A model generated the notes under the pieces. The model saw nothing but the letters and a program-made list of their open reading frames with translations. It did not search any database and was not told where the DNA came from. The position numbers and the translations under genes are program-made. Shown piece after piece: positions 39,589 to 40,190 of a DNA stretch of 64,000 nt (within the stretch, counting starts at the first letter, position 1; the number at the start of each line of letters is the position of its first letter). Source of the DNA: Symbiodinium natans (taxonomy: Eukaryota; Sar; Dinophyceae; Suessiales; Symbiodiniaceae); contig CAJNDS010002103.1 in NCBI GenBank assembly GCA_905221605.1, positions 542,306 to 606,305 of the forward strand, in the 5' to 3' direction.

Positions 39589-39666
39589 CTCCGGAGCGAA
39601 AGACACGCCGCAGACCGGGCACACCCCTTCGCTCCAGCACTGAAGCAAGCACTCCACGTGGAACAC
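39589..39666 (-). CDS. RING-like zinc finger, C-terminal exon
   Basis: Minus, 26 codons, phase 0 at both ends: acceptor CTCAAG|GTG, donor GAG|GTGCAC. It encodes FHVECLLQCWSEGVCPVCG: the F-H-x2-C...W...C-P-x-C half of a RING-type E3 ubiquitin-ligase finger. The other half is in the next exon upstream (40089-40190). Left flank CCCTAAA, right flank TTTAGGG. Confidence 0.7.
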
Positions 39667-40088
39667 CTTGAGTTTAGGGTTTAGGGTATAGGGATTAGGG
39701 ATTAATTAGGGTTTAGGGTTTAGGGCTTAGGGTTTAGGGTTTAAGATTCAGGGTTGTTCTGTGCAGATGGTCCTAGAAGGTCCATGATGGTGGAGTTGGG
39801 TTTCTTGGGCGGTTCTCAGGGGCTTGTAGGAACTCTTCCGGCATCAAATTCGATGACGCGCTATGCCGAAGGGCGAAGGTGGGGTGAGGGGGTTTGCAAT
39901 TTCGTGCCCCCAAACGGAGACTGGTTAAGAACAGCCCTCTGTATACGCTCAAGAGACACCCGAAAACTGGTTAGTGACTGGTACAGTTACCACCAAATCT
40001 TCAACTGGGTTCATGGCTCAGTGGATGCGCGCACGTGATACTCCCCGTAAACCCTAAACCCTTTATAAATCCTAAACCCTAAACCCAC
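39667..40088 (-). other. Intron with telomere units at both ends
   Basis: 422-nt GT-AG intron in coding sense. It starts GTGGGTTTAGGGTTTAGG and ends with CCCTAAACCCTAAACTCAAG, so the ends are inverted. It contains no other clear exon; an open frame on plus (39754-40038) is inside it. Confidence 0.6.
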
Positions 40089-40190
40089 TTCAGACATGTG
40101 ATCCCCCTTGTCTGGCAGAGATACATGGCTGCATTTCCGGGGCCGCGCCCGATAGTCAGCTTCTATCGGTTGGCAGCAGCTCATGCACTC
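40089..40190 (-). CDS. RING-like zinc finger, N-terminal exon
   Basis: Exactly 34 codons, phase 0, acceptor GTGCAG|GAG, donor GAA|GTGGGT. Reads ECMSCCQPIEADYRARPRKC, then SHVSLPDKGDHMSE. Joined to 39589 it gives C-x2-C...C-x-H...F-H-x2-C...C-P-x-C, a full set of RING-type ligands with a long loop between C-x-H and F-H. E3 ligase activity is inferred from the motif only. Confidence 0.7.

Follow-up and report, generated by a model that had tools for sequence, protein, structure and literature searches.

Telomere-unit arrays that tend to face away from exon-sized blocks in the genome of the dinoflagellate Symbiodinium natans

Results

The 64-kb window (the whole stretch of Symbiodinium natans DNA analyzed here, C1791:542306-606305) contains 625 exact copies of the heptamer TTTAGGG and 453 of its complement CCCTAAA, the reported telomere unit of dinoflagellates according to two publications (PMC11453091, PMC11508785). 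When units no more than 40 bp apart were merged, 172 arrays with at least two units were obtained; a list of islands with at least three exact units, in which units of one orientation were merged within 60 bp, comprises 136 entries between positions 1049 and 63931. Below, C and T stand for CCCTAAA and TTTAGGG arrays, respectively. The first-pass annotation had described, on the plus strand, a recurrent alternation of CCCTAAA, exon, TTTAGGG, spacer and CCCTAAA, and this alternation, with a short block in the place of the exon, is seen in the window. Among the six islands that had been singled out as examples, those at 11550, 18035, 28730, 45278 and 51324 display the full C-block-T arrangement, whereas the one at 45826 does so in part (CCCTAA at 45818, TTTAGGG at 45910). 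Some of the spacers hold repeats of other kinds, namely, long repeats at 38879-39238 and 47044-47317 that translate as YVCMYVCM or HTYIHTYI, poly-G runs in other spacers, and recurring short palindromes, among them CCCTTACAAGGG and CTATATAG, in the spacer 18981-19263 and partly elsewhere.

Two introns on the minus strand of the window could be delineated with the help of protein homology. The first of these separates the halves of a RING-H2 finger, encoded by an exon at 40125..40214 (RGMHPWVQECMSCCQPIEADYRARPRKCSH; 5' limit approximate) and an exon at 39589..39666 (VFHVECLLQCWSEGVCPVCGVSFAPE; 3' limit placed, from the sequence, at a putative GT donor at 39588). Joining these exons at a donor at position 40124, which reads CAT|GTATCT, gives KCSHVFHVECLLQCWSEGVCPVC and a zf-RING_2 score of 30.5 bits, compared to a curated cut-off of 27.3 and at most 15.9 bits for the single exons. 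Solved RING proteins match the joined exons, with EL5 as the best match (E 6e-4). The donor at 40088, which had been proposed initially, introduces 12 surplus residues into the finger and yields 18.8 bits. Because that donor breaks the RING finger and scores lower, 40124 is preferred, and the intron, with the splice choice made by RING score, most likely spans 40124-39667 (458 nt, GT-AG) rather than 40088-39667. The acceptor side of the original proposal stands, with a CCCTAAA array (39673..39739, coding sense) whose final unit stops 6 nt short of the 3' end of the intron; on the donor side, the intron start moves outward, such that the degenerate sense-strand TTTAGGG array (40043..40088) has its first exact unit beginning at nt 42. 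The two arrays of this intron differ in their variant units. Just past the second RING exon, in what is presumably the next intron, lies another sense-strand TTTAGGG array (39514..39562), and the layout of this homology-checked exon is C-exon-T.

The second intron (63518..63940, 423 nt, GC-AG) is flanked by an exon encoding VGDAVEYFGASRGFWIPTK (63941..63997; TAG|G at 63998 is predicted from the sequence to be its 5' limit) and an exon encoding VSRVNEDGTYDLACRAPTANEKSRKI (63440..63517; 3' limit unfixed). Here, the first exact TTTAGGG lies at nt 10, the final CCCTAAA stops 5 nt short of the 3' end, and AAGG is found at both junctions. The joined peptide, VGDAVEYFGASRGFWIPTK followed by VSRVNEDGTYDLACRAPTANEKSR, aligns gap-free to an uninterrupted paralogue that lies on contig C2438 within an open frame of 347 aa (17/43 identical residues, E 0.0015). 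The inverted-array plan with a GC donor, as claimed previously for this intron, therefore holds, with the paralogue spanning the junction without a gap. With GC-AG or GT-AG ends, an AG|G acceptor and homology across the joins, both introns look like dinoflagellate-type spliceosomal introns, and protein homology supports the predicted boundaries of both. The host intron system is otherwise spliceosomal.

The arrays are real and exist at the scale of the genome. Across the assembly that includes the window (759,417,921 bases in 2543 contigs), the two-unit word CCCTAAACCCTAAA has 1,787,600 exact matches in the forward and 1,788,098 in the reverse orientation (3.58 million altogether), that is, approximately 4,700 per Mb, compared to 280 + 257 = 537 matches for the reversed-word control. 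The arrays are patchy across the genome: among 17 further loci, 3 lack any unit, a fourth has 2 over its 10 kb, and densities in the remaining 13 range from 1.6 to 43 units per kb. These 17 loci are a non-random set, with L007 and L008 centred on chaperonin matches and L009 and L010 on listed matches of CCCTAAACCCTAAA; locus counts are based on these loci and the window, with one 75-base region excluded. Since they repeat the telomere unit in tandem at internal sites, the sequences in question are interstitial telomeric sequences, the unit being known from dinoflagellates generally rather than from the chromosome ends of this species.

The relative orientation of the arrays is strongly non-random. 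In the window, C-to-T gaps concentrate at about 90-145 bp. For successive arrays of at least two units in the window and the 17 loci, we compared the observed gaps with those obtained when the orientations were shuffled within each locus (3000 shuffles). At gaps of 80-159 bp, 58 C..T pairs were observed against 29.5 expected (sd 4.2), along with 14 T..C (29.5 expected), 33 T..T (36.5) and 14 C..C (23.4) pairs. At gaps of 200-599 bp, the asymmetry is reversed, with 45 T..C pairs against 23.6 expected (sd 3.9) and 9 C..T (23.6), 24 T..T (28.2) and 17 C..C (19.6) pairs. Neither the C..T excess at the shorter gaps nor the T..C excess at the longer gaps was reached in any of the 3000 shuffles, so that the pattern reported initially withstands comparison with shuffled orientations. 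For pairs of units, the C..T to T..C ratio is 1.0 at 40-70 bp, rises to 3.0-3.4 at 100-190 bp, and drops below 1 from 270 bp. Genome-wide, at a spacing of 100-130 bp, there are 476,252 occurrences of CCCTAAA-N-TTTAGGG versus 253,009 of TTTAGGG-N-CCCTAAA (ratio 1.88; controls, 417 and 361). The same spacing between two TTTAGGG units occurs 628,173 and 581,477 times on the two strands, pairs within the same array included, and T-N(270-300)-C, the single order counted at that spacing, occurs 473,954 times. Thus, the outward orientation is a genome-scale tendency of about two to one, and no law.

Kinesin exons provided a sample chosen blindly with respect to the arrays. A search of the genome with the kinesin profile (PF00225) produced 98 matches, of which 62, mainly the shorter ones, at 55 loci were used; several of these are short P-loop pieces that may be pseudogene fragments. 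No unit was found within 200 bp on either side of 46 of the 62 matches. The nearest upstream unit within this distance was C in 6 cases and T in 6 (none in 50), and the nearest downstream unit was T in 6 cases and C in 2 (none in 54). All four matches flanked on both sides within 200 bp have the C-exon-T layout (L039, L040, L055, L066); when the distance is extended to 300 bp, there are 5 two-sided C..T cases versus 2 T..C cases. Among the one-sided arrays within 200 bp, the upstream-only arrays include 2 C and 6 T, and the downstream-only arrays 2 T and 2 C. Hence the two-sided layout recurs at independent exons, whereas one-sided arrays follow no clear rule. That the orientation plan extends to exons in general is not confirmed, given the 46 matches that are free of units and the 3 unit-free loci among the 17. 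Two of the kinesin matches, C2272:24877-25725 and C2351:4358-5206, have equal scores and profile spans and might be either products of recent duplication or one sequence assembled twice.

The C..T blocks in general are presumably exons. Other blocks of this type in the window give plausible minus-strand peptides, as judged by eye, and C..T blocks have higher coding scores than other blocks do (in the window, where the training exons are included, p is 1.3e-6; at the other loci, 3.3e-4). However, the scores of C..T blocks are no higher than those of the same blocks reversed, and because reversed blocks score alike, we set these scores aside as proof of exons. A purpose-built exon finder with 29 seed peptides was dropped since, at a score of 3, it called 148 exons in the actual and 148 in the reversed sequence, and a simple count of splice motifs in the blocks was uninformative. 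Comparison of stop-masked frames from part of the window with Pfam produced no match above the cut-off. The attempt to obtain homology-checked introns via TCP-1 chaperonins yielded just one exon, CCT delta. This TCP-1 exon, of the delta type by its match to a solved structure, is located on contig C1902 in intron-rich surroundings; elsewhere, chaperonin matches at C1992:33993-35855 (minus strand) fall mostly inside one 682-aa open frame that is apparently intron-less.

Further comparisons concern the intron bodies, their edges and their RNA structure. In a genome-wide search that skips very common words and was run without a positive control, the inner parts of the two introns (281 and 301 bp) had no match other than themselves (2/2). 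Among the window segments between arrays, 47 pairs are alike at E 1e-4; these similarities are mostly short and include a recurring element of about 115 bp, with no single body shared. The flanks of 80 T..C pairs, whose array edges are fuzzy and some of which may not be introns, are no more alike than re-paired flanks (means for flanks of 10 nt, 2.63 versus 2.59; of 14 nt, 3.25 versus 3.16; of 20 nt, 3.74 versus 3.81), and no signal of target-site duplication was seen. When folded as RNA, both introns form long stems, with z-scores of -4.7 and -9.8 (the RING intron being folded from a start at 40088).

Discussion

The arrays, their genome scale, their polarity around exon-sized blocks and the way they are laid out at four kinesin exons and at two introns backed by homology call for an explanation, and we tentatively favor an origin by telomerase-type addition at free 3' ends within introns, a reading that we hold to be plausible though somewhat short of probable. 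Under this scenario, in which interstitial telomeric arrays occupy many of the introns of S. natans, nicks or breaks in intron DNA, the presumed substrate, would expose free 3'-OH ends, to which a telomerase-type activity, the presumed source, would repeatedly add TTTAGGG, whereupon the ends would rejoin; the arrays would later lengthen by slippage and decay. Insertions into exons would be removed by selection, leaving the surviving arrays on the flanks of exons, and any effect on splicing would be incidental, or a minor benefit gained later. At exon-sized blocks with arrays on both sides, the 5' to 3' direction of the G-rich strand tends to point outward (CCCTAAA-exon-TTTAGGG). Telomerase acting on a fragment that bears an exon would extend its two 3' ends in just this manner, and so the outward polarity fits such an origin. 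Similarly, the unmatched intron bodies and the different variant units at the two ends of the RING intron give the ends the appearance of independent additions, not of parts of one copied element. Addition by telomerase at free 3' ends has been proposed for the telo boxes of plants (PMC3022908). Two observations fit this origin less well. Healing of a break on both sides followed by direct rejoining predicts abutting T and C arrays, yet T..C gaps shorter than 40 bp are few (14/126 when single units are counted and 2/87 for arrays of at least two units), so that this reading has to invoke filler DNA or events independent of each other. In addition, the one-sided kinesin arrays ignore the polarity, and the two-sided cases at 300 bp include 2 T..C along with 5 C..T. 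In a bolder version, which we regard as improbable, telomerase would actually build introns: DNA ends in and around exons would be capped like miniature chromosomes and rejoined, and very many telomere-repeat intron ends would then serve as splicing signals or as RNA-pairing arms.

The orientation might instead have been set by selection on splicing, with the arrays inserting both ways: TTTAGGG lying upstream of an exon would provide false 3' splice sites of the form UUUAG|GG, while GGG after the donor and CUAAA before the acceptor would be helpful or harmless. GGG runs that follow the donor and branch-point-like CUAAA that precedes the acceptor have roles in splicing. The composition of the repeats suits this idea, TTTAGGG repeats containing AG and GGG and CCCTAAA repeats neither AG nor GT, and so do the arrays downstream of kinesin exons (6 T versus 2 C), but the upstream arrays are evenly split (6 C versus 6 T) and 46/62 matches are free of units over the 200 bp on either side. 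We therefore consider such selection a rather unlikely principal cause, although, judging from the motif, it can add to the orientation rule, TTTAGGG holding the 3'-splice-like UUUAG|GG. A further possibility is that UUUAGGG and CCCUAAA pair in the pre-mRNA and draw the splice sites together, as proposed for the introners of Amoebophrya, for which a hairpin model exists. The first-pass annotation had raised this possibility for the intron ends, and both introns indeed fold into long stems; however, any inverted repeat would give such a stem, and the strength of folding accordingly shows no splicing role. The kinesin sample speaks against pairing as a requirement, in that most exon matches are array-free nearby and 6 of the 12 upstream arrays are misoriented. 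Because most of the matches are array-free and the one-sided arrays irregular, a general requirement of the arrays for splicing is unlikely, and we assign a low probability to pairing as the explanation. Even less credible, and in our view very improbable, is a microsatellite-like spread of the telomere motif without meaningful orientation, or an assembly artefact. Most arrays are short and degenerate, and their distribution is uneven, as would be the case under such a process, but shuffled orientations never match the observed values, and the genome-wide C..T to T..C ratio is 1.88.

The repeats could also be the ends of intron-creating elements (introners), as the initial reading of the window had suggested. 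For present-day elements, this is not supported: neither of the two intron bodies tested matched any other sequence of the genome, the flanks of the 80 T..C pairs have no excess of duplications, and, on this comparison of sequences, a current introner family does not appear to be supported. What could be entertained, as a rather unlikely alternative, is old introners, that is, DNA-transposon-like elements with terminal inverted repeats ending in telomere-like units, the bodies of which have diverged while the ends were kept or expanded. Such an origin would agree with the AAGG at both junctions of intron 63940-63518 and with the excess of T..C gaps of 200-599 bp. Introners with 4-bp target-site duplications and terminal inverted repeats have been published for Symbiodinium microadriaticum (PMC9860276), and inverted-repeat introns for several dinoflagellates. 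The bodies tested here, in contrast, match only themselves (without a positive control), the 47 similar inter-array pairs, mostly short and including the one ~115-bp element, reveal no common body, and the array edges show no excess of direct repeats. Furthermore, the first exact unit lies 41 nt inside the donor of the RING intron, so that its position at nt 42 exceeds the 30-base rule quoted for introners; in intron 63940-63518, the corresponding distances are nt 10 and 5 nt.

In the literature searched, we recognized no earlier report of telomere arrays at intron ends; the layout combines known kinds of sequence, interstitial telomeric repeats and inverted-repeat introns. Euglenid non-conventional introns have ends that are brought together by pairing; compared to these, the S. 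natans introns have GT-AG or GC-AG ends and telomeric repeats. The dinoflagellate introners (Amoebophrya A25/A120, S. microadriaticum, Prorocentrum cordatum and Polarella) resemble the introns analyzed here in having inverted repeats at both intron ends and non-canonical donors, and for those of Amoebophrya a hairpin has been proposed. Unlike in these introners, the inverted repeats of S. natans consist of telomere units repeated in tandem over varying lengths, neither of the tested bodies is repeated, and a signal of target-site duplication was not found. The Amoebophrya paper mentions telomere units at scaffold ends. Interstitial telomeric sequences at double-strand breaks in primates, rodents and horse likewise consist of the telomere unit in short arrays at internal positions and are ascribed to break repair, sometimes with telomerase (PMC2246262, PMC7215372), but S. 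natans differs in its millions of two-unit matches and in the outward polarity around exon-sized blocks. The telo boxes of plants are, again, telomere units within genes; their density in Arabidopsis is 155 per Mb, and 5' UTRs are enriched in them (PMC3022908), as opposed to the approximately 4,700 two-unit matches per Mb in S. natans, which form arrays beside exon-sized blocks.

Dinoflagellate chromosomes are already strange, and some of the exons described here resemble tiny capped chromosomes. Intron gain and growth are old questions, to which this layout could bring light, as it could to intron recognition, because the telomere unit offers a natural tag for the building or lengthening of introns. 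The layout also raises the question whether splicing or chromatin in dinoflagellates involves terminal stems, G-rich RNA or proteins that bind telomeres. For gene finders and repeat maskers, the arrays carry a warning that the telomere motif can mark exon borders besides chromosome ends.

Additional features of the window

A tRNA search returned none. Two stretches of the window are free of arrays and hold long open frames. At 24370-25536 on the plus strand, that is, opposite to most of the presumed exons, there is a 388-aa open frame that looks retroelement-like by eye and has no Pfam match; at 61462-63015 on the minus strand, overlapping long open frames encode a putative cysteine-rich protein with a threonine-rich tail, for which all Pfam matches are below the cut-offs. 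Between the arrays, an interspersed element of ~70-115 bp is present at 5511-5615, 14303-14417, 19965-20076 and 51089-51157 in copies that are 75-83% alike, and is possibly a small mobile element.
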